64,000 nucleotides of DNA from Verrucomicrobium sp. BvORR034 (GCF_000739635.1 NZ_BATQ01000171.1:1-64000); one strand, 5' to 3'. Shown: positions 3,824 through 47,862, numbered from the stretch's first letter. Notes: generated by a model not told the origin, from the sequence alone. A program made the numbers and translations.

Positions 3824-3924
3824 GCCTCCGCAGAGGATGATCAGGTGGGGAGGCCGACAGCATCCGCTTTCTCTCCTCTGCCATCAACGCCTCCACGTCA
3901 GGCGGATGCGATGTCATGCACTGC

Positions 3925-3981
3925 CTGACATTCGCGGCAAGATGCCGCGAACAGCACGCAGGGATGCGTGCGCTCCCCGAG
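3925..3981 (-). repeat. repeat family A (GGGGAGCGCA hairpins), minus-strand copy
   Basis: Read on the minus strand this is GGGGAGCGCACGCATCC followed by the rest of hairpin 1 and a second hairpin CGCGGCATCTTGCCGCG. In the copy at 34775 the second stem begins CTCGGCATC and ends TTGCCGAG, so a base pair differs on both arms in a compensating way. Confidence 0.7.
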
Positions 3982-4212
3982 CTTCCCAGGCAAAGGCCAC
4001 TTTGAGAAACGGCCAGACCACGTTTCACCACCCCAGGTTCCTTGGCAGGCACTAACTGAAGCGTCTGCAGTGTCGCCCTTGTATCATGTCACCAAGCGCC
4101 CCGGACGCCCCTGTGGGCTATGCCGACTCAGCAACCATAGCCGTCGCCCTACAACCCGGGGCATCCCCTCCTCCAACTCGGAGGCCTGCCAACATCCTCC
4201 CACCCCACATCC

Positions 4213-4270
4213 CCCAACGTCTGGCGGCGGTGCCGCTGTGGAGTGCGTGCGTGAAGCGCCGCTTTCGTGG
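4213..4270 (+). repeat. repeat family B copy 1
   Basis: Carries the conserved tail GGAGTGCGTGCGTGAAGC followed by GCCGCTTTCG. The variable palindrome before it is GCGGC-GGT-GCCGC, a hairpin with a three-base loop. Confidence 0.75.
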
Positions 4271-4503: not shown

Positions 4504-4556
4504 ACTGACATGCCCGGCAGGATGTCGGCAACAGCACGCAGGATTCGCAAGCTTCC
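4504..4556 (-). repeat. repeat family A, degenerate minus-strand copy
   Basis: Retains CTGCGTGCTGTTG and a GCCGACATCCTGCCGGGC second stem when read on the minus strand, but the GGGGAGCGC edge has decayed. Confidence 0.5.
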
Positions 4557-4587
4557 CTATCATGACGCTCCAAGGTCAGTGGGGACC

Positions 4588-4628
4588 GCACGCTTCCAGC
4601 GTGCCACCTTCTGCATCCTGCAGAAGGT
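4588..4628. repeat. two adjacent perfect hairpins with TCC loops
   Basis: GCACGCT-TCC-AGCGTGC (4588-4604) is followed after one base by ACCTTCTGCA-TCC-TGCAGAAGGT (4606-4628). The first hairpin with its flanks recurs identically at 40225-40241. Confidence 0.8.
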
Positions 4629-4690
4629 TCAGGCTCACCGCACCCCAACATTCCCCTGCCACCCCCATCTCCCGCCTCACCCATCACCTC

Positions 4691-4728
4691 AAGTCTTGCG
4701 TCTTGTGTCTTCTAGTCTTGAGTCTTTT
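4691..4728 (-). repeat. GTCTT heptamer tract at the 3' end of the GH18 gene
   Basis: Plus-strand units GTCTTGC, GTCTTGT, GTCTTCTA, GTCTTGA follow each other. The tract overlaps the stop codon of the minus-strand GH18 gene, so the C-terminal KKTQD of that protein is encoded by repeat units. Related tracts sit at 20626, 28824 and 40511, each at a minus-strand gene end. Confidence 0.75.
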
Positions 4729-11179: not shown

Positions 11180-11250
11180 CAAACACCTGCTCCCACTTGT
11201 CCCGACGCGTCGGGATGGAGTGCGTGCACGACGCGCCGCTTTCGCGGCTC
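11180..11250 (+). repeat. repeat family B copy 3
   Basis: Variable palindrome TCCCGACG-CGTCGGGA (16 bp, perfect), then GGAGTGCGTGC, then a terminal hairpin GCCGC-TTTC-GCGGC that is complete only in this copy. Confidence 0.75.
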
Positions 11251-11345
11251 CCACCCGTTTCCTCGAACTTTGGATAGACGAGCAGGACGAGAGACATCCG
11301 CCCCCTCGCAGTCCAAAGCCTCCCTCCCACAACATCCCAGAGTCA

Positions 11346-11497
11346 TTGGGAAGCGCAGTCGGCTCGACTGCCGTTCTCGGCGGCCCGCCGGGAACTCAGC
11401 ATCGGAGAGACAGAGTTCGCTCAATGTCCAGGTGCCACCTGAACTGAGCTTCGGGCGCCCCCCCTTGCAGCAGTCGAGCCGACTGCTCTCTCCCCCG
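11346..11497 (+). repeat. repeat family A copy with reciprocal hairpins
   Basis: Starts TTGGGAAGCGC. Hairpin GCAGTC-GGCTC-GACTGC at the left has its exact reverse complement (GCAGTCGAGCCGACTGC) at the right end, so each can fold alone or pair with the other. The middle holds the stem CTCGGCGG/CCGCCGGG. Confidence 0.7.
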
Positions 11498-11569
11498 ACC
11501 TCACCCCTGCCAACACCTGGCGGCGTCCCGATGCATCACCGCACTTATAGTCGGCTCGACTACTCCCCC

Positions 11570-20625: not shown

Positions 20626-20665
20626 AGTCTTGCGTTTTAAAGTCTTCTGTCTCCCGCGTAGCGGG
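20626..20665 (-). repeat. heptamer/hairpin tail module overlapping the PPTase 3' end
   Basis: On the minus strand, hairpin CCCGC-TAC-GCGGG is followed by AGACAGAAGACT. The same module follows the stop codons at 28854 and 40564. Here it lies inside the reading frame and encodes the C-terminal residues RYAGDRRL. Confidence 0.7.
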
Positions 20666-21425
20666 CCGAGGTCGGCGTCAGCATCGCGACAAAGCTCGCC
20701 ACATGGCGCGGGCAAAACCGGATCCGCTCAAAGGCCCACCCGGGGCCCGGGAAAATGGGCCAGGCATTGCCCGCCGCATCGAAGTGCACCTGGATCTCAT
20801 GCGGTGAACCGTCCAGCCCGACGCCCAGGGCTTTCAGCGACGCTTCCTTGATGGTCCAGGCCTCCGCAAAGGCGCGTCGTCGTAACTCCGCTGGCAGGCA
20901 GGACCAGGCCAGAAACTCGTCCTCAGTGAAAGCGATCTCCAAATGCTCATCAGAAGGCTCATGCTCGTCTATTTCCTCGACATCCACCCCAATGCCCGCC
21001 GCCTCTCCCAGAATGATCAGCGAACATTCGTCTGAGTGGGCCACGCTGAAGTCCAGATCACTCGCCAGGGGATGCATGCAGCGAGGCTTCCCATGCACAT
21101 CCATCCTCAGCGGCACCATGTTCGGCGGCACGCCGATCTCACGGCCCAGCATCCGCCGCAGCTCCGCCCGAGTGCGAACCGCCAGCGCGCAGGTCCGGCG
21201 ATCTCGCAGCGTGGCGTGGTAGTGGGCCCGCTCTTCCAGGGTCAGCATGGCGGAGTCGATCGGGCAGACCTCATCCAGGTCCCGTCCATCAAGGATCCGG
21301 CAGAGCACAGATCGCTCCTCCATGGCGGAGGAAGTGGACCGCCTGCCGAGGGCGAAGTGGGCGAGCATCATGCCAAAGCGCCCGTTGGCTGTTTCCGAGG
21401 TCTCGTGAGTGGTCGTGGACGTCAT
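20637..21425 (-). CDS. 4'-phosphopantetheinyl transferase, Sfp/EntD type
   Basis: This enzyme moves phosphopantetheine from CoA to a serine of carrier proteins. The 262-residue protein has the family's signature order: GKPR (about residue 112), FSVAHSD (about 126-132), GIGVDVEEID with the Mg-binding Asp-x-Glu pair (about 145-154), and AWTIKEASLKALG (about 190-202). No carrier protein, PKS or NRPS gene is visible nearby, so it probably serves carriers encoded elsewhere. The final residues come from a dispersed repeat module, so the C-terminus was probably remodelled by repeat insertion. Confidence 0.93.
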   Translation of the reverse strand: MTSTTTHETSETANGRFGMMLAHFALGRRSTSSAMEERSVLCRILDGRDLDEVCPIDSAMLTLEERAHYHATLRDRRTCALAVRTRAELRRMLGREIGVPPNMVPLRMDVHGKPRCMHPLASDLDFSVAHSDECSLIILGEAAGIGVDVEEIDEHEPSDEHLEIAFTEDEFLAWSCLPAELRRRAFAEAWTIKEASLKALGVGLDGSPHEIQVHFDAAGNAWPIFPGPGWAFERIRFCPRHVASFVAMLTPTSARYAGDRRL

Positions 21426-28252: not shown

Positions 28253-28401
28253 TTGGGGAGCGCAGTCGGCTCGACTGCCGTTCCCGGCGGCTCGCCGGGA
28301 AATTCATGAGCGGAGCGAAGTCGCGCCTCCTTCGTATGCGCCCTGAACTGAGCTGCGGGCGAGCCGCCCTTGCAGCAGGCGGGCCGCCTGCGCTCCCCCA
28401 A
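28253..28401 (+). repeat. repeat family A, most complete copy
   Basis: Outer arms TTGGGGAGCGC and GCGCTCCCCCAA pair with one bulge. Inside: GCAGTCG-GCT-CGACTGC, then CCGGCG-GCT-CGCCGG, then GGGCG-AGC-CGCCC and GCAGGCG-GGC-CGCCTGC. All four inner hairpins have three-base loops. Confidence 0.8.
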
Positions 28402-28468
28402 GTTTTCTTAGCAGCGTCCCATCCCCCTGCTACTCTCCCAAGGTTCAAGGCAACAATCTCGATCCACA

Positions 28469-28532
28469 AAAGCGGCGCTTCACGCACGCACTCCATCCCG
28501 ACGCGTCGGGACAAGCGGGGCCAGGTGTTGGC
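28469..28532 (-). repeat. repeat family B copy 4, inverted
   Basis: Minus-strand CCAACACCTGG, then the 16-bp palindrome TCCCGACGCGTCGGGA, then GGAGTGCGTGCGTGAAGC and GCCGCTTT. Confidence 0.8.
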
Positions 28533-28599
28533 CAACTCCAGTCATCAGGCTCCTCGCACAGCTTGCACCATCCCTTGCACGTTCGCCTCGATCATCAAA

Positions 28600-28629
28600 C
28601 CTTCGTGCCTTTGTGCCTTCGTGTGAGAA
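28600..28629. repeat. CCTTCGTG octamer repeat, copy 1
   Basis: CTTCGTGC, CTTTGTGC, CTTCGTGT then GAGAA. Shorter copies occur at 40453 and 47863. Reverse translation gives the HEGTKAR-like strings often seen in spurious ORFs. Confidence 0.7.
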
Positions 28630-28633
28630 TATC

Positions 28634-28696
28634 AGACTCCCGCTCCACCGGACACCGCCGATTGCCAATCTGCGGTGTCTGGTGGAGCGGGACTCT
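28634..28696. repeat. 63-bp near-perfect palindrome with GCC loop
   Basis: Left arm from AGACTCCCGCTCCACC and right arm GGTGGAGCGGGACTCT pair, then GACACCGC/GCGGTGTC and GATT-GCC-AATC at the centre (28665). Only three positions per arm fail to pair, so it is a roughly 27-bp hairpin with a three-base loop. Confidence 0.9.
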
Positions 28697-28707
28697 TGGC
28701 ACGGACC

Positions 28708-28760
28708 GGGACAAGAATGCCCCTCCCTCCTTTTACTGATCACTCCGCTGGGCTCGTCCT
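28708..28760 (+). repeat. GGGACAAGAATGCCCCTCC repeat, copy 2
   Basis: Matches 20149-20195 over the GGGACA-R-GAATGCCCCTCC core and a degenerate downstream half. Confidence 0.6.
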
Positions 28761-28823
28761 CCGTTGCGTCCGCTCAAGTCTGGCATCTGATGTCTGGCAG
28801 TCTGGCGTCTCCGCGAAGCGGTC

Positions 28824-28853
28824 AAGTCTTCTGTCTCCCGAGCAACGCGCGGG
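28824..28853 (-). repeat. heptamer/hairpin tail module after the DUF4407 gene
   Basis: Begins immediately after the TGA stop. On the minus strand a CCCG...CGGG hairpin is followed by AGACAGAAGACTTG, as at 40511-40560. Confidence 0.65.
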
Positions 28854-30578
28854 TCACACCGAACTCGCGGGCTTGGTCGTCCCCTGGTCAAAGAACTGCT
28901 CCATGCGACCGCGCAGGTCGCCGTAGAACGTGTCTGCCATGTGCCGCAGCATTGCCTGACGTTCCGCGCTGGAGAAATGCGCACTGGCCCCGGCCAGAGT
29001 CTCCTCCTGCGAGCGCATGCGCTCCTGAAAGGTCTTCTCCAGGTCCATGAGAGTTTCCAGGAATTCCTTGGCTGCCTTGGAGCGATCCACGCCTTCAATC
29101 AGTGCCTGCTCGAGCGGCTTGTTGCGCGTCAGGTGCAGGAGCCGGCCGTTGGCCAGCTCATCCATATACCGATGGTAGCTTTTCAAGAAGGCCTCACGCT
29201 CCTTGTCGAACCGCACCTCATCACAATCCACCAGCGTGTCATACGGCCCCGGCTTGGCGAAGAATTTCACCATCAGAGGAATCGTGTCCACCAGCATGAA
29301 CAGCAGTGAAAGCACCACATACGCCGTAAGGGCGAACTGGCCACCTTCGGATCCTTCGCGAAACACCCGGTGCAGCGCCAGCGTCTGCTTGAGGATGTCG
29401 CGCCGCGGTTCATCGCGGATCTTGTCCATGCGCGCTCGTTCATCCTCGCCGATCTTCGCCAGCTCCTTTTGCATCTGTTCCATCTGCTCCAGCCGGGTGT
29501 CGATCTGGGTCTTGAGCGTGGCGCGCATTTGGTTCTGCTGATCCACAAACTGATCCGCCTGCTGCTGCTGCACCTGCTGGCGGAGGCCTTCGATCCGGGC
29601 CTGCTCCTGCTTCACCTTCACTGCCTGCTCCGTGGCCTTTACCTCGGCGGCTGCGGTCAGGGTCTGCTCGATGCTCAGCGACTCCGCCTGCAACTGGGTG
29701 CGCTCCAGCGTGCGAGCCTCCAACATGCCTGCCACACGCTTGCTTTCATCCCGACGCCAGGCCAGCTGATCACTCTGGATGCTCTTGGCTCGCGGCCCCA
29801 GGCCGATGATGCCGCTCCGCTGCCCGTTCAGCTCGCGCTCGAACTCCTTCTGCCAGAAATCCAGCTCCGACTGCAAACGGACAGACTGCGTGGTGAGATC
29901 CATTATTTCCTTTTCCGCCGCCTTCAGTTTTTCCACCGTGGGGGCCTTGGCTTCGGCGATCTGCTTTTCGAGCTCCGCCTTGGCGCGTCTTTCCTCGTCG
30001 GTGAGCGGCTTCTTGTCCCCGTGGCTTTCGTCACCCACCAGGAACTTGGCGTTGAAGCTCTCGTCCCATTTCTGCCGCGCCTTGGCGATCTCCCCATCCA
30101 GGGCGGTGATCTTCTCCTCCACCACCTTCTTCTGCTCCACCGCTGTGGTCCGCACGGCGTTAAGTTCGATCTCCCGATCTTTCTCGATCACCGACGAAAT
30201 GGTGTCCTTGAAGAGCAGCAAGGTCAGCGGGTGGGAGATGGTGATGCCCATGAGCCCTGCCACCACGAGACGGAGGAAAAACTGGCTGACCTTCCGGAAG
30301 AACGACTGATAGGCGCGATACGTGGCCAGCAGCGCCCGGTCCACGGTGAGGATGATAAAGGCCCAGACCGTGGCCACGCCGAAGATGACATTCCAGTCCG
30401 TGGTGAGCGTGGAGATGGCGTAAGCCGCCGCGATGAAGGCGAACACGCAAGGCACCAGCACCGTCGCGCCAAAGGCCACATACTTGCGCACCTCCCACGG
30501 CGGGCACTCGCGCAGATTCACATCACTGGCGCCGGAAAGCCAGACGAAGACACGGGCGAAGAAACCAGGCTGGTTCAT
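28854..30578 (-). CDS. DUF4407 membrane protein with long coiled coil
   Basis: 574 residues from the ATG at 30578. The N-terminal LSGASDVNLRECPPWEVRKYVAFGA is the hallmark start of DUF4407. Three membrane segments follow (about residues 29-55, 62-82 and 100-124). Next comes a predicted coiled coil of about 250 residues rich in Glu, Lys, Ala and Gln, then a fourth membrane segment (FALTAYVVLSLLFMLVDTIPL, about 420-440) and a soluble tail. Function of the family is unknown. The gene follows the ABC exporter genes on the same strand after 173 bp. Confidence 0.85.
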   Translation of the reverse strand: MNQPGFFARVFVWLSGASDVNLRECPPWEVRKYVAFGATVLVPCVFAFIAAAYAISTLTTDWNVIFGVATVWAFIILTVDRALLATYRAYQSFFRKVSQFFLRLVVAGLMGITISHPLTLLLFKDTISSVIEKDREIELNAVRTTAVEQKKVVEEKITALDGEIAKARQKWDESFNAKFLVGDESHGDKKPLTDEERRAKAELEKQIAEAKAPTVEKLKAAEKEIMDLTTQSVRLQSELDFWQKEFERELNGQRSGIIGLGPRAKSIQSDQLAWRRDESKRVAGMLEARTLERTQLQAESLSIEQTLTAAAEVKATEQAVKVKQEQARIEGLRQQVQQQQADQFVDQQNQMRATLKTQIDTRLEQMEQMQKELAKIGEDERARMDKIRDEPRRDILKQTLALHRVFREGSEGGQFALTAYVVLSLLFMLVDTIPLMVKFFAKPGPYDTLVDCDEVRFDKEREAFLKSYHRYMDELANGRLLHLTRNKPLEQALIEGVDRSKAAKEFLETLMDLEKTFQERMRSQEETLAGASAHFSSAERQAMLRHMADTFYGDLRGRMEQFFDQGTTKPASSV

Positions 30579-30751
30579 GGTAGGAGACGACAAGAGGTCA
30601 AAAAGGCACGCAGGCGGGATGTTATCAATCGAGGAGGCTGTGCCGGGGTTCCTCCGCCCGCGGGCAAAGTTTTGCGCAGGCCAGTTATACTCGTCCGAAA
30701 GGTCCCCTGCAAGAAGTAGCGAAACCTCAGACTCCCGGGCAGCCGGGAAAT

Positions 30752-31945
30752 TCAATTCAAACTCATCCGGACCAGCCCTGCCCCCAGCTCCCAAACCAGC
30801 GCGGTGATGCCCCCGGCCAATCCTGCCGCCAGCACCCCCACCATCACCACTTCTGCCGCCTTTACCGTCGCAATGCGCCAGCGGCTGATGCCCAGATCCT
30901 CCAGCGTGGCGAACTCACGCCGCCGCATCTTGAAGGACAGGGCAAACACCAGTGAGGAGATCAGAATGACCACGACGCCCAGCACCCCCAGCAAGACCAC
31001 GGTGAACCGCTCCGCCTGCACGAGGGTGGCCAGCAGCGCATCCATCTCCACGACCGGCTGCACCAACTGGTGGGCCATCTCCGGCTTTTGATAGCGCCCC
31101 AGCAGGATGGCCTGCGCCTTCTCATCCTTCGGCACCACGAGGATGGCGGTGAGCGGGAAATCATCCGGATTCCCGTGAAAGTGAAACGACTTCAGATTCT
31201 CGGCCGTGACCTCGTTGTACATCCGCACGGCCTTGCTCCCCACCACATTTTGATCCGTGCGCGACAGCACTGCATTGGGATCTTCCGCCGTCACCAGATC
31301 CTCATGCCCATGCGCTTTCCCCTCGATCAACCAGGCGGTTTTGACGTCCACAAAGATCGCGTGGTCATCGGCCGTTCCCGACTCCGCAAGCACTCCGGTG
31401 ACGGTCATCCGCAGCGGGTAGATCCCCGCCAGATCAAACACCTGCTCAGGTGAGGAGCTCACCTTGCCCCCCACCTGCCAGCCCCGCTCCCGCGCCACTC
31501 TCGCGCCCACCACACAATCTCCCAACCGGCCCAGCGTGCGCCCCTGGGCGATGGGCAGACCGCGGTAGGCAAAGTACTCCAGACTCGTTCCCACGATCGG
31601 GGCCTGCTGGGCATGGTAACGCACGTACAAAGGAATGGCCGTTGCCAGACCGCTGGACCGGATCGCCTGCACCTGTTTCTGCGGAATCTCCCCCGCGCCC
31701 CGTCGGCGGAAATAGAGGGCATTGAGCACCAGTTCCAGCGGACTGCCCTTTGCCCCCAGGACCAGCGGGGTAGCAGCTGCCCGGGATCGCATTTCCGCCT
31801 GGGCGATCTGCACCAGCCCCCGCACGGCCAGCGGCAACGCGAGCGTCAACCCGAGTGCGAGGATCAACAGAAGCGTGCGCACGCGGTAGTGCGCGACGTA
31901 CTGCCAGGCGAGTTGCAACGGCCCTTTCACGACGGCTGGCTCCAC
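30752..31945 (-). CDS. ABC transporter permease, FtsX/MacB type
   Basis: 397 residues with an N-terminal membrane segment (LLLILALGLTLALPLAV, about residues 26-42), a large extracytoplasmic domain (about 50-270), and three C-terminal membrane segments, the topology of MacB/FtsX-like permeases. MRRREFATLEDLGISRWRI fits the cytoplasmic coupling loop of the family. Such systems extrude lipoproteins, peptides or lipids, or act as mechanotransmitters; the substrate is unknown. It overlaps the ATPase gene by 19 bp, so the pair is translationally coupled. Confidence 0.88.
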   Translation of the reverse strand: MEPAVVKGPLQLAWQYVAHYRVRTLLLILALGLTLALPLAVRGLVQIAQAEMRSRAAATPLVLGAKGSPLELVLNALYFRRRGAGEIPQKQVQAIRSSGLATAIPLYVRYHAQQAPIVGTSLEYFAYRGLPIAQGRTLGRLGDCVVGARVARERGWQVGGKVSSSPEQVFDLAGIYPLRMTVTGVLAESGTADDHAIFVDVKTAWLIEGKAHGHEDLVTAEDPNAVLSRTDQNVVGSKAVRMYNEVTAENLKSFHFHGNPDDFPLTAILVVPKDEKAQAILLGRYQKPEMAHQLVQPVVEMDALLATLVQAERFTVVLLGVLGVVVILISSLVFALSFKMRRREFATLEDLGISRWRIATVKAAEVVMVGVLAAGLAGGITALVWELGAGLVRMSLN

Positions 31946-32562
31946 GCCTCCACGCTGAGTTTCTGCTGGGCCTGCTCGTGCAACTCCAGGTCATGCGTCA
32001 CCAGCACCAGCATCGTGCCGTGCTCGTGCAGCTCCTTTTGCAGCAGATCCGCCACCATGTTGCGCCGCCGGGTGTCCAGCGCAGAGGTTGGCTCATCCGC
32101 CAGCAGCAACGCCGGACGATGCAGCAAAGCCCGCACCACCGCGATGCGCTGACGCTCGCCTTGAGACAGCTGGGAGACCAAGTGCTCCCGGTGCCCCGCC
32201 ATCTCCACCGCTTCCAACAGCGATTCCGCGCGCGTCTCGTGATCCTTTTGCAGACGCCCCGTGAGACGCAGTGGCAGCAGCACGTTGTCCCAGGCCGTCA
32301 GGTATTCGATCAGGGCGAAGTCCTGAAACACGAGTCCCGTGCGGGCCAGACGCACCGCCCGGTCCGGCACCGCACCCTCGATCTGGACGCAGCCGCCCTG
32401 CGCCGCCAGGATGCCGGAGAAAAGCTTGAGCACCGTCGTCTTCCCGGCGCCGCTCGGCCCGCCCAACCCCAGACTCTGTCCCGGCCTCAGGATCAGCTCC
32501 GGGATGTGCAGGGAAAAGCCGCCCCCGCCATAGGCAAAACGGAGGTCGCGGACTTCGAGCAT
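31927..32562 (-). CDS. ABC transporter ATP-binding protein, LolD/MacB type
   Basis: 211 residues with all nucleotide-binding motifs: Walker A GPSGAGKTT (about residues 35-43), Q-loop in VFQDFALIEYLTAWDN, signature LSQGERQR, Walker B ALLLADEPTSALD and the switch His in VTHD. The length and the LTAWDNVLLPLRL segment match exporters partnering FtsX-like permeases, which is the overlapping next gene. It starts 33 bp after the ABC-F gene ends on the same strand. Confidence 0.93.
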   Translation of the reverse strand: MLEVRDLRFAYGGGGFSLHIPELILRPGQSLGLGGPSGAGKTTVLKLFSGILAAQGGCVQIEGAVPDRAVRLARTGLVFQDFALIEYLTAWDNVLLPLRLTGRLQKDHETRAESLLEAVEMAGHREHLVSQLSQGERQRIAVVRALLHRPALLLADEPTSALDTRRRNMVADLLQKELHEHGTMLVLVTHDLELHEQAQQKLSVEAWSQPS

Positions 32563-32595
32563 GGGGAATTCAGGTTCGAGGTTCCTACATCCGCG

Positions 32596-34590
32596 TCAGG
32601 CGAACTCCTTCTCAGCACTCTCAATGGCCTCGCTCACTTCCGACCATTGAGAGAAGGCCTTTTCCAGGGAGCTTTCGATGGTGGAGAAGCGGCTTGTCGT
32701 CTCCATCACCTCCCCGGCATCCGTGCCAAAGGAGGCGCTGTTCATCTTCTTCACCAGCTCGGTCTTGTCCTGCTCCAGGCTCGCGATCTGCCCCTCCACC
32801 GCCTCCAGCTTCTCCTGCAGCGGCTTCAGGATGTGCGCCCGTTGCTGGCGCTTCTGCGCCTCGATCCGCCGGCGCTCCTTGGAGTTGTTGTCGATCTCCA
32901 CCGGCATGGCCGTGGGTTTGACGACTGCGGCGGGGCTGCTGAAACTGATGCTGCTGGTCGCGGCCAGCTTTGCCTTCTCCTCCGCCTTCTTCTCCAGATA
33001 GTAGCTCAGGTTGCCATGGTAGAGCCGGGGGGACTCGCCCACACGGAACTCCAGCGTCTTCGTCACCACGGGATCAAGAAAATCACGATTGTGGGAGACG
33101 ATGGCGTAGCTGCCGGAGTAGTCCAGCAGCGCCTGCTGCAGCACCGACTGGGAGCGCATGTCCAGGTGGTTGGTCGGTTCGTCCAGCACCAGGAAGTTGG
33201 AGGGAGTGAGCAGCATGTTGGCCAGGGCCAGACGTCCCCGCTCCCCGCCGCTCAGCACCTTCACCAGCTTGAAGACGTCATCCCCGCGGAAGAGGAAACA
33301 TCCCAGCAGGGTGCGGAGCTGCGCCTCGGACATTCCCTTTGCGGATTTCTCAATCGTTTCCAGCACCGTTTTGGCGCCGTCCAGCGCATCGGCGTGGTCC
33401 TGCGAGTAGTAGCCCACCCGCACGTTGTGCCCCAGCTCCCGGGTGCCACCTGTGGCCTTTTCCACCCCGGCCAGGATCTTGCTGAACGTGGTCTTGCCTG
33501 CGCCGTTCACACCCACAATCGCCAGCCGGTCGCCCTTGTTGATTTCGAAGTCGAAGGGCTTCAGGACATAACGCACGCCATCATAGCTCTTGGCGACCCC
33601 CTCCATGCGCATCACCGTGTGACCGCTCGCCGGAGGCTGCGGGAACTTGAAGCCGATTTCGTCACCCTCCACTTCCAGCTCGATCCGCTCCACCTTGTCG
33701 AGCGCCTTGATGCGGCTCTGGACCATGGACGCCTTGTTGGCCTGGGCGCGGAAACGGTCGATGAACTGCTGCGTCTTGGCGATCTCGCGGTCCTGGTTCT
33801 TCTTGGCGCGCTCCAGCTGCTCGCGACGCGCCGCACTCTCCCGGACAAAGAAGGAGTAGTTCCCCTGGTACTGGGTGGCCCGGGCACCAGGCTCGAAGGC
33901 CAGAGTGCGGTTCGTCAGGTTGTCGAGGAGACGCCGGTCGTGGCTGATCAGGATGATCGCACCGGGGTAGTTCTTCAAATAGTCTTCCAGCCAGACCACC
34001 GTCTCGATGTCCAGGTGGTTCGTCGGTTCATCCAGCAGCAGCACGCTGGGCTCTGCGAGGAGCAGCTTGGCCAGGGCGATGCGCATCTGCCAGCCGCCGC
34101 TGAATTCATCCGTGAGCCGGTCCAGATCCTTGTGGGCGAAACCCAGGCCCATCAGCACTCGCTCGATGCGCGGCTTCATTTTCGACAGGTCGTGGTGCTC
34201 CAGGCGGATCTGCAGGTCCCCAAAGACCTCCAGGGCGTCGATGTACTCGCTGGAAGACGTGTCGTAGGTCCCCAGAGCCTCGCTGGCCTCGTCAAACTGG
34301 CGCTGCAGTTCCATCGCGTCCTCAAACGCCGTTTCCGCCTCCGCCATGAGGGTACGCCCCTTCACCTCCACCCCTTCCTGGGGCAGGTACCCGACCGTCA
34401 CAGACTTGGCCTTGATGATCTTCCCCTCGTCCTGCTGCTCGATCCCGGCGATGATCTTCATCAAGGTGGACTTGCCCGCCCCGTTGGGCCCGGCCAGGGA
34501 AAAGCGCTCCCCGGCGCGGATGGTGAAGTTCAATTCTCCAAACAGACGGCGGGGGCCATATGAGATACCAAGGTTTTCTGCGGCAAGCAT
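32596..34590 (-). CDS. ABC-F family ATPase (Uup/YheS-like)
   Basis: 664 residues with two ABC domains and no membrane segments. Domain 1: GPNGAGKST, FSGGWQMRIALAKLLL, LLLDEPTNHLD. Domain 2: GVNGAGKTT, LSGGERGRLALA, LVLDEPTNHLD. The linker between them (about residues 240-300) is Arg/Lys/Gln-rich as in ribosome-binding ABC-F proteins, and the C-terminal 100 residues form a charged coiled coil as in Uup. Members act on the ribosome in translation or in antibiotic protection. The start at 34590 is preferred because the ABC fold begins at once (MLAAENLGISYG). Confidence 0.93.
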   Translation of the reverse strand: MLAAENLGISYGPRRLFGELNFTIRAGERFSLAGPNGAGKSTLMKIIAGIEQQDEGKIIKAKSVTVGYLPQEGVEVKGRTLMAEAETAFEDAMELQRQFDEASEALGTYDTSSSEYIDALEVFGDLQIRLEHHDLSKMKPRIERVLMGLGFAHKDLDRLTDEFSGGWQMRIALAKLLLAEPSVLLLDEPTNHLDIETVVWLEDYLKNYPGAIILISHDRRLLDNLTNRTLAFEPGARATQYQGNYSFFVRESAARREQLERAKKNQDREIAKTQQFIDRFRAQANKASMVQSRIKALDKVERIELEVEGDEIGFKFPQPPASGHTVMRMEGVAKSYDGVRYVLKPFDFEINKGDRLAIVGVNGAGKTTFSKILAGVEKATGGTRELGHNVRVGYYSQDHADALDGAKTVLETIEKSAKGMSEAQLRTLLGCFLFRGDDVFKLVKVLSGGERGRLALANMLLTPSNFLVLDEPTNHLDMRSQSVLQQALLDYSGSYAIVSHNRDFLDPVVTKTLEFRVGESPRLYHGNLSYYLEKKAEEKAKLAATSSISFSSPAAVVKPTAMPVEIDNNSKERRRIEAQKRQQRAHILKPLQEKLEAVEGQIASLEQDKTELVKKMNSASFGTDAGEVMETTSRFSTIESSLEKAFSQWSEVSEAIESAEKEFA

Positions 34591-34774
34591 GGGAGAGCAC
34601 CCATGCCATGAGGTGGAGGGGGATGCAAAGGGTGGAGGGACAAAAGTAGTGCTGGGTTTTGGCCTGGCTTCCCCGCGCTGGGCCAAAAGGCAACCCCACG
34701 CCAACGGCGTCAGACAAAATACCCTCGCGTGGAGCGAGACGGAGGCCTAGCAACGCCTCCCCGCGCAACACGGA

Positions 34775-34875
34775 TGTTGGGGAGCGCACGCATCCTGCGT
34801 GCTGTTCTCGGCATCTTGCCGAGGACGACGATTTTGCAAAGTCTCTGAAGGGTCTCCAGCCAAAGCCCCCCAACA
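34775..34875 (+). repeat. repeat family A copy closed by TGTTGGGG/CCCCAACA
   Basis: Outer arms TGTTGGGG and CCCCAACA enclose GCACGCA-TCC-TGCGTGC and CTCGGCA-TCT-TGCCGAG, both with three-base loops, then a less structured third part. Confidence 0.75.
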
Positions 34876-34936
34876 CCTGGCCCCGCTTGTCCCGACGCGT
34901 CGGGATGGAGTGCGTGCGTGAAGCACCGCTTTCGCG
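34870..34936 (+). repeat. repeat family B copy 5
   Basis: CCAACACCTGG, CCCCGCTTG, palindrome TCCCGACGCGTCGGGA, then GGAGTGCGTGCGTGAAGC and ACCGCTTTCG. Nearly identical to the inverse of the copy at 28469. Confidence 0.8.
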
Positions 34937-35092
34937 CCCCCATGACATCCTCACATCCTGCATCTTGAACAGGGCGATTCCATCCTTCTCCGATCCCCCG
35001 CCCCCAAATCCAGCAAAGACCCCAGTTGTCTCCACGTACTCCCCAAGCCCGCAAAACCGCCCCCACCGCCTTCGCCCCTCGCTCTTTTTGCC

Positions 35093-39825: not shown

Positions 39826-39918
39826 CGGGTCGGGGGTGGCCACTTGCCACGTAAATTGTTTCCACCAACCCGACTCTCGACTTCGGAGGCCGGGCAGTGT
39901 CCACCAACTGGAGCACCT

Positions 39919-39971
39919 CCAACACCTGGCGGCGCAGCCGCTGTGGAGTGCGTGCGTGAAGCGCCGCTTTC
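39919..39971 (+). repeat. repeat family B copy 6
   Basis: CCAACACCTGG, then palindrome GCGGC-GCA-GCCGC in place of the TCCCGACG type, then the constant GGAGTGCGTGCGTGAAGC and GCCGCTTTC. Confidence 0.8.
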
Positions 39972-40009: not shown

Positions 40010-40266
40010 GCGGAGCCCACTCCTCCGCTTCTGCCACATCGTAAACAGCCCGACACAGGACTCCCCAAAGCGGCAATCCTTGCCGCACTCCCAAAATCCC
40101 GCAAGCGGGATCAGGTGGAGGACGTCGATGGGAATGACACGTCCCATCGGCCTGAGAAGCCGCCAAAACGTGCGACTGAAGTTCCCGGCATCCACGCCAC
40201 AACACTTCACAGTCATTGAGGACCGCACGCTTCCAGCGTGCCCCCGATACCGAAGGCATCACAGAA

Positions 40267-40485: not shown

Positions 40486-40560
40486 CCCCAGACCCCAGAC
40501 CCCAGACCTCAGGTCTTGAGTCTTGTGTCTTCCAGTCTTCTGTCTCCCGCCGAAGGCGGG
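40486..40560 (-). repeat. heptamer tracts and hairpin tail after the LpxH-like gene
   Basis: Three CCCAGAC units (40486-40507), then GTCTTGA, GTCTTGT, GTCTTCCA, GTCTTCT units and the hairpin CCCGCC-GAA-GGCGGG (40546-40560), four bases from the stop codon of the minus-strand gene. Confidence 0.75.
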
Positions 40561-47727: not shown

Positions 47728-47753
47728 TTGGGGAGCGCACGCATCCTTCGTGC
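47728..47753 (+). repeat. repeat family A, truncated copy
   Basis: TTGGGGAGCGC followed by GCACG-CATCCTT-CGTGC only; the second hairpin is replaced by unrelated sequence. Confidence 0.6.
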
Positions 47754-47862
47754 TCGGACGCCAGCCAGACACGTCGTCCCCACTCGCAGCCGAACCTCCG
47801 GGTTCAACTCCATCTGCTTCGAAGTCACCCCTTCCCTCCACTCCATCTCCATCGTTCCTCCC

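Follow-up and report, generated by a model that had tools for sequence, protein, structure and literature searches.

What kind of element is a short repeat that stands between the genes of a verrucomicrobial genome, folds into hairpins and keeps its stems paired when their bases change? The question is raised by a repeat, here family A, in a 64,000-nt stretch of DNA from Verrucomicrobium sp. BvORR034, which we analyzed as a whole and refer to as the window. The initial annotation of this DNA offered a structured RNA, a mobile palindromic element and a DNA cruciform site as readings. REPs have been known for decades; whether RAYTs, the REP-associated tyrosine transposases, move REPs, and by what means RAYTs are maintained, is still debated. 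The account we arrived at, with a probability of roughly 0.85, is that family A is REP/REPIN-like non-autonomous DNA that spreads by single-strand DNA transposition with a cognate RAYT nested in other genes.

Anatomy and copies of the family A unit

A family A unit is about 57 nt long and consists of a 5′ tag, reading GGGG-A-(G/C)-C and invariant, followed by two hairpins (TTGGGGAGC-hp1-hp2), as seen when 32 units, almost all picked by the 12-base tag alone, were aligned. A covariance model built from this alignment, with E ≤ 0.1 as the threshold, found nine units in the window, of which two score weakly (Table 1). Exact copies of TTGGGGAGCGC stand at 28253, 34777 and 47728, and the copy at 11346 differs in one letter; all four were listed in the initial annotation, which had placed the one at 34777 at 34775. 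With up to one mismatch allowed the window holds nine matches where 3.0 are expected, and none of 100 shuffles reached nine. Genome-wide, TTGGGGAGCGCA occurs 30 times and its reversed control not once. BLAST extents among the copies mostly have one edge at the tag and the other 40-60 nt further.

Table 1. Family A units and remnants in the window (positions counted from its first letter; scores are those of the covariance model).
Position	Strand	Feature	Evidence
3922-3980	-	Unit, A1 type, tag TCGGGGAGCGC, within a longer mosaic repeat	71.4 bits, E 5e-13
4508-4556	-	Degenerate unit without tag	Read by eye; not recovered by the covariance model
4579-4636	+	Unit, GGGGACCGC variant	42.7 bits, E 9.6e-7
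11346-11403	+	A2-type unit on the left of a decayed dimer	62.6 bits, E 4.1e-11
11440-11498	-	Decayed inverted partner of the 11346 unit	21.1 bits, E 0.05, weak
28253-28310	+	A2-type unit on the left of the closed inverted dimer 28253-28400	69.9 bits, E 1e-12; exact tag
28344-28400	-	Inverted partner unit closing the dimer 28253-28400	52.6 bits, E 6.6e-9
34777-34834	+	Unit, A1 type, single	75.6 bits, E 6e-14
40187-40196	-	Remnant after deletion of a unit, place approximate	Alignment: unit intact in G002, deletion at a GCA repeat
40216-40245	+	Hairpin 1 alone (GGACCGCACGCTTCCAGCGTGC)	20.1 bits, E 0.085, weak
47728-47780	+	Unit, truncated, hairpin 2 lost	50.4 bits, E 1.9e-8

The copy first reported at 3925 is the minus-strand family A unit 3922-3980. 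That at 4504 can be read by eye as a degenerate minus-strand unit, but it has no tag and the covariance model missed it. The original list also lacked the units at 28344-28400 (-) and 4579-4636 (+) and the weak ones at 11440-11498 (-) and 40216 (+). The serial hairpin layout described for the copies holds in the form of two hairpins per unit, with the exception of 47728, which is without hairpin 2.

The window copies are intergenic and lie mostly between convergent genes. Some A1 units are embedded in a mosaic of about 430 nt together with hairpins of the ends of the L001 RAYT. The idea of a CGTC-tagged REP, based on AACGTCAG at the 3′ end of the unit, was rejected since both strand and position are wrong for the published CGTC families; AACGTCAG at this place is not conserved beyond Verrucomicrobium.

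Stem covariation and inverted pairing

Compensatory change had been proposed from three variants of stem 2. All three are present, and the compensation extends to the whole alignment of 32 units, in which 89.4% of the cells are paired (76.9% in shuffles) and 51 double changes were counted against 14.7 in shuffles, a number that 0 of 500 shuffles reached. Slid controls were 30-45% paired. A cross-genus set, pre-screened for the hairpin-1 stem, was 96% paired with 102 double changes. The covarying structure is real; we read it as the hairpin of a Y1/HUH single-strand DNA transposase, because units flank such a transposase as its inverted ends, tandem pairs are lacking and the number of units tracks the transposase (below).

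The repeat had also been described as closing on a 3′ edge of its own. At 28253 the closing edge exists and is a second unit in inverted orientation, at 28344-28400; the 34777 unit has no partner, and CCCCAACA found there is part of a different repeat (family D8) that starts near 34866. The "closed" element is an inverted dimer of two units, REPIN/BIME-like, without its own 3′ edge, and the dimer 28253-28400 folds as one long hairpin. Unit pairs less than 300 bp apart number 17 in this genome, against a random expectation of about 0.35. Thirteen of them are (+-) with the tags outward, four are (-+) with the tags inward and none is in tandem. Unpaired units make up 69 of the 100 found in the genome, single units being at least as common as dimers.

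Distribution across genomes

Searching the genome and its relatives with a covariance model, as had been suggested initially, returned at least 100 units in the 8.58-Mb genome and matches in 36 of 115 related genomes, patchily and almost all in one family; unit counts per genome are lower bounds, with a maximum of 48 or 150 candidates scored in each. The core hairpin GGGGAGCRCACGCRTCYYGCGTGY was scanned for exactly in 84,980 prokaryote species genomes (GTDB), where it occurs in at least 113 stretches. Among the matches listed, all that carry the name of a phylum or lower group are Verrucomicrobiota (Verrucomicrobiales, Opitutales, Chthoniobacterales, Limisphaerales, Methylacidiphilum, Puniceicoccales and Akkermansia), and one isolate is named merely "bacterium". 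Hairpin 2 was outside the search pattern; its stem is no shorter than 6 bp in 78 of the 118 distinct sequences from these listed matches, compared to 2.3 when shuffled, with 62 different stem arms and a loop that is mostly TCY.

Two congeners are referred to below: G002 is Verrucomicrobium sp. BvORR106, and G003, a single contig of 8,220,857 bases, is presumably Verrucomicrobium spinosum (DSM 4136). Alignments place the 34777 unit in the same position in G002 and partly in G003, and the place orthologous to the 47728 site holds an intact unit in G003. When the window and two more regions were set against two congeners, none of the sites proved to be a clean empty one with defined ends. Units were conserved, were partly deleted, as at the GCA repeat near 40190, or had disappeared from spacers that were reshuffled, and for this reason no target rule could be read from the comparison. 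No target-site duplication was seen at the units. By eye, the orientation of the units along the single-contig congener genome has no clear strand bias.

A RAYT nested in frame in housekeeping genes

This genome encodes six other RAYT genes (L001-L006). Here and in 12 relatives none of the stand-alone RAYTs is bordered by family A, and most have as flanks their own multi-hairpin inverted repeats of about 100 nt. The nested family nearly escaped a profile made from stand-alone RAYTs: run on phylum-wide loci, the profile gave one weak match, by which the family was noticed. The match lies between two inverted family A units, in a frame that runs on as alanyl-tRNA synthetase. Using this nested RAYT domain (A-RAYT), tblastn found eight further loci, each in frame with alaS, thrS or the DNA repair gene recG. 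At L303, L292, L374 and L411 both border units were found by the tag pattern as inverted ends of the RAYT. The frame passes into the insert through GSARVPRA... and leaves it through ...TRDACAP, with variants of both. In other nests one or both ends have drifted in DNA with the peptide kept (e.g., SARVPRAV ... STRDACAP).

To see the family without regard to context, we searched the proteins of 388 genomes of the phylum. This search gave 8 matches at E ≤ 1e-20, every one within a frame 730-1479 aa long: alaS is the host of five and recG of two, and the eighth, which is more distant, sits in a Snf2-like helicase. The 115 relatives, searched with a profile, yielded 14 strong matches (E ≤ 2.4e-67), again all in long frames, 13 of recG and one of alaS. 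Some 490 genomes were sampled for nests. All 24 distinct family-A RAYTs are in frame within housekeeping genes (15 recG, 8 alaS, 1 thrS), and none of these frames is shorter than 700 aa. The nested alaS of G184 is split over two contigs, with its N-terminal side on the other contig. Frames of 700 aa or more were found for only 2 of 59 Y1 transposases detected with Pfam in 12 related genomes.

Pfam places host domains on both sides of Y1_Tnp in the nested proteins. Both recG and alaS are single copy; a weaker second recG match in each genome (about 40% identical, mostly in frames of about 1,100 aa) we read as mfd. The alaS site has about 20 residues when free of the insert and about 213 when nested. 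In searches of the open-access literature we came across no description of a RAYT inside recG or a tRNA synthetase gene, nor of single-copy housekeeping genes as a hiding place for one.

Identity and conservation of A-RAYT

A-RAYT is a REP-associated tyrosine transposase by NCBIfam NF047646, which four of four sequences passed (81-84 bits, cut-off 80). The HUH motif (H-V-H) and one tyrosine are invariant in 12 rows. Its confidently predicted structure (pLDDT 85.5) has as best PDB match 4er8 (E 9.9e-7), a RAYT bound to a REP hairpin. A-RAYT is under purifying selection, with a dN/dS in the nested insert of 0.05-0.24, similar to RecG, values that are rough as dS is often above 1. In a tree the family-A RAYTs are grouped (96/96) and the host genes need 7 label changes. 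The recG insertion site is common to several genera. There may have been a single entry into recG or alaS.

Probable loss of the enzyme from this genome

A-RAYT is absent from the window's genome, and the cognate transposase was therefore invisible to the initial annotation. In G003, recG contains a full nested RAYT between two units with GCACGCTTCCAGCGTGC as hairpin 1, identical to hairpin 1 of the window copy at 4579. In the recG of the window genome all that is left is ...FDAECRTLEACAPQIPAADRGPD..., which is what remains, in frame, of the downstream unit (C54; L384:1438), and the recG of G002 has only ...ESCAPQI... as a scar. With A-RAYT absent and only the in-frame remnant left in recG, the family A copies of the window have probably been orphaned by the loss of a RAYT that was nested in recG.

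All 14 genomes with A-RAYT among the 115 relatives have units. The number of units is higher with A-RAYT when the nested pair is subtracted (p = 7e-9, kinship ignored and counts being lower bounds), although part of this association is inherent, as the nest brings units of its own. Many units are present without a detected A-RAYT in G008 (at least 32) and G017 (18); those must be orphans or have moved in trans.

Weighing other explanations

We are close to certain that family A is REP-like mobile DNA and not primarily RNA. A regulatory RNA selected for its folded transcript, whether terminator, attenuator or small RNA, would agree with the strong covariation and with the intergenic position of the window units, mostly between convergent genes, but a DNA hairpin for a single-strand transposase would covary equally. 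The units stand in either orientation, form inverted dimers, turn over between congeners and are also found within coding frames beside the transposase. They have no Rfam match, the sole Rfam match of the window being a tRNA. These points make RNA as the primary nature of the repeat highly improbable. Scarcely credible is a MITE with a DDE transposase, or a non-mobile cruciform or protein-binding site. Inverted dimers that fold as one long hairpin do resemble terminal inverted repeats, but the prevalence of single units and the lack of a visible target-site duplication speak against it, and the enzyme bordered by the units is Y1/HUH, not DDE. Among the readings offered initially, the mobile palindromic element is retained, and the RNA and the DNA cruciform are not.

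The units could instead have been moved in trans by other RAYTs, the nested A-RAYT being incidental. The six RAYT genes here, the absence of A-RAYT from this genome and the A1 units inside the mosaic with L001 RAYT-end hairpins all suggest such a course; we consider it very unlikely, since L001-L006 have different inverted ends of their own and it is A-RAYT that the units border and that their number follows. It is unlikely, too, that the nested RAYT is a domesticated RecG or AlaRS domain with a host function, with family A left as a relic or binding-site family. The shared recG site in several genera and the purifying selection are consistent with domestication, and RAYTs are known as single-copy, vertically kept genes (PMC6006769). 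However, three host genes are used, with units at the borders; the insert has been lost by in-frame deletion within one genus and is patchy (8 of 388 genomes); repeats are more numerous where the RAYT is present; and the HUH motif and tyrosine are invariant. We thus prefer transposition of family A by its cognate nested A-RAYT.

Relation to known systems

REP, BIME and REPIN repeats with their RAYTs (TnpA_REP) have been described as the E. coli REPtron and in Pseudomonas (PMC3116915, PMC2817692, PMC8266576). Like them, family A has a tag and hairpin, inverted and not tandem dimers (13, 4 and 0 as given above), and a RAYT bordered by repeats, the latter in G003 and other relatives and not in this genome. 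It is likewise a high-copy short palindrome that is mostly extragenic, with at least 100 units in 8.58 Mb and intergenic copies in the window. Family A differs in having two hairpins per unit and the tag GGGGAGC instead of GTAG. Neither GTAG nor GTGG or near variants are found 5′ of its hairpin foot, where GGGG-A-(G/C)-C takes the same position. Its core is common to a phylum, not a species, and its transposase is nested in housekeeping genes.

TIRYTs of TIRtrons are RAYTs in separate genes with inverted multi-hairpin ends, some double-palindromic (De Nocera 2013, PMC3733652). Family A is similar in having a RAYT with such ends, and the ordinary RAYTs of this bacterial family (L001-L006, L144-L173) resemble TIRtrons more than family A does. 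The TIRtron motif GGGGWSAS does not fit, as GGGGAGCR of family A has C instead of A at position 7. Intragenic REPs and Rickettsia palindromic elements are in-frame repeats of 20-82 aa, including in repair genes and tRNA synthetases (PMC3733652), whereas here a whole transposase domain is inserted, about 200 aa with its ends. Inteins and homing endonucleases also place a selfish enzyme in frame in a conserved housekeeping gene, but the family A enzyme is Y1/HUH and its repeats have spread beyond the host gene. The Pfam hits of seven nested proteins include no intein domain, and by eye the junctions have no splicing motifs.

A model for family A and its transposase

The nested A-RAYT very probably is or was the enzyme of family A. 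As a Y1/HUH enzyme it would recognize single-stranded hairpins and cut and join DNA; it presumably cuts the family A hairpin, with the tag as its likely guide. The units would multiply singly or as inverted dimers, in this window between genes. A-RAYT, bounded by units, would be translated as an internal domain of its host enzyme, RecG, AlaRS or ThrS. In the window genome the recG-nested A-RAYT would have been deleted, leaving the intergenic copies as slowly decaying orphans.

Carried in frame inside a housekeeping gene, A-RAYT would not be easily lost. We infer that this is what favors the nest and that host enzyme and transposase could both work as a chimera; the chances are about even that selection has favored nesting as a strategy and that the chimera works. 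We are equally divided over a broader scheme, in which the transposase lineage regularly nests in recG, alaS and thrS (other lineages in leuS), becomes a domain of a working helicase or tRNA synthetase so that its deletion is penalized, and spreads its repeats from there. RecG would perhaps take the transposase to forks that have stalled and at which hairpins form.

A repeat core conserved across a phylum, together with an identified cognate RAYT in housekeeping genes, would be a concrete answer to how RAYTs persist, and natural RecG-transposase and AlaRS-transposase chimeras are available for testing. Nested RAYTs are easily overlooked by surveys that drop long proteins. One survey of the superfamily threw out Y1 proteins that were longer than expected, taking them for fusions or errors of annotation (PMC6006769).

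Other RAYT genes and their ends

Most of the ordinary RAYT genes in the Verrucomicrobiaceae (L001-L006, in the genome of the window, and L144-L173) are bordered by inverted multi-hairpin ends of about 100 nt, with each RAYT having its own type of end. Leucyl-tRNA synthetase carries in-frame nested RAYTs of other lineages (L418 in G094:C57 and L420 in G089:C12), and their repeat ends (GFQPM.../...GQDAHAT; TGLRPV.../...) differ from those of family A. In the window's own genome, RAYT L012 (G000:C154:5033), with repeat ends of TGFQPV/GCKPV, forms one open frame with a NUDIX hydrolase downstream. A more distant RAYT with GSAGVPPA-type ends is found in frame within a Snf2-like helicase (L375, G445:C83). 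In genome G010, alaS (L400, G010:C9) has a different insert of more than 100 extra residues; it contains no RAYT and occupies the site where other genomes have their nested RAYTs.

Additional repeats

Verrucomicrobium carries tens of copies of a mosaic repeat of about 430 nt, in which a family A unit is joined to hairpins of the L001 RAYT ends and the closing sequences are TGCCAAGGAACC/GGTTCCTTGGC. The window contains a second hairpin repeat family, in which GGAG likewise precedes a hairpin, and repeated tracts recurring close to gene ends.

Positions of the additional repeats
Feature	Sequence	Location	Positions
Mosaic repeat, ~430 nt		L248	13560-14034
Sequence related to the mosaic repeat		window	3850-4050
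Second hairpin repeat family	contains GGAGTGCGTGCGTGAAGCGCCGC	window	4195-4266, 11186-11251, 28470-28531, 34866-34941, 39900-39971
Repeated tracts	AAGTCTTGCGTCTTGTGTCTTCCAGTCTT-type	window	4679-4725, 20640-20666, 28764-28850, 40499-40559
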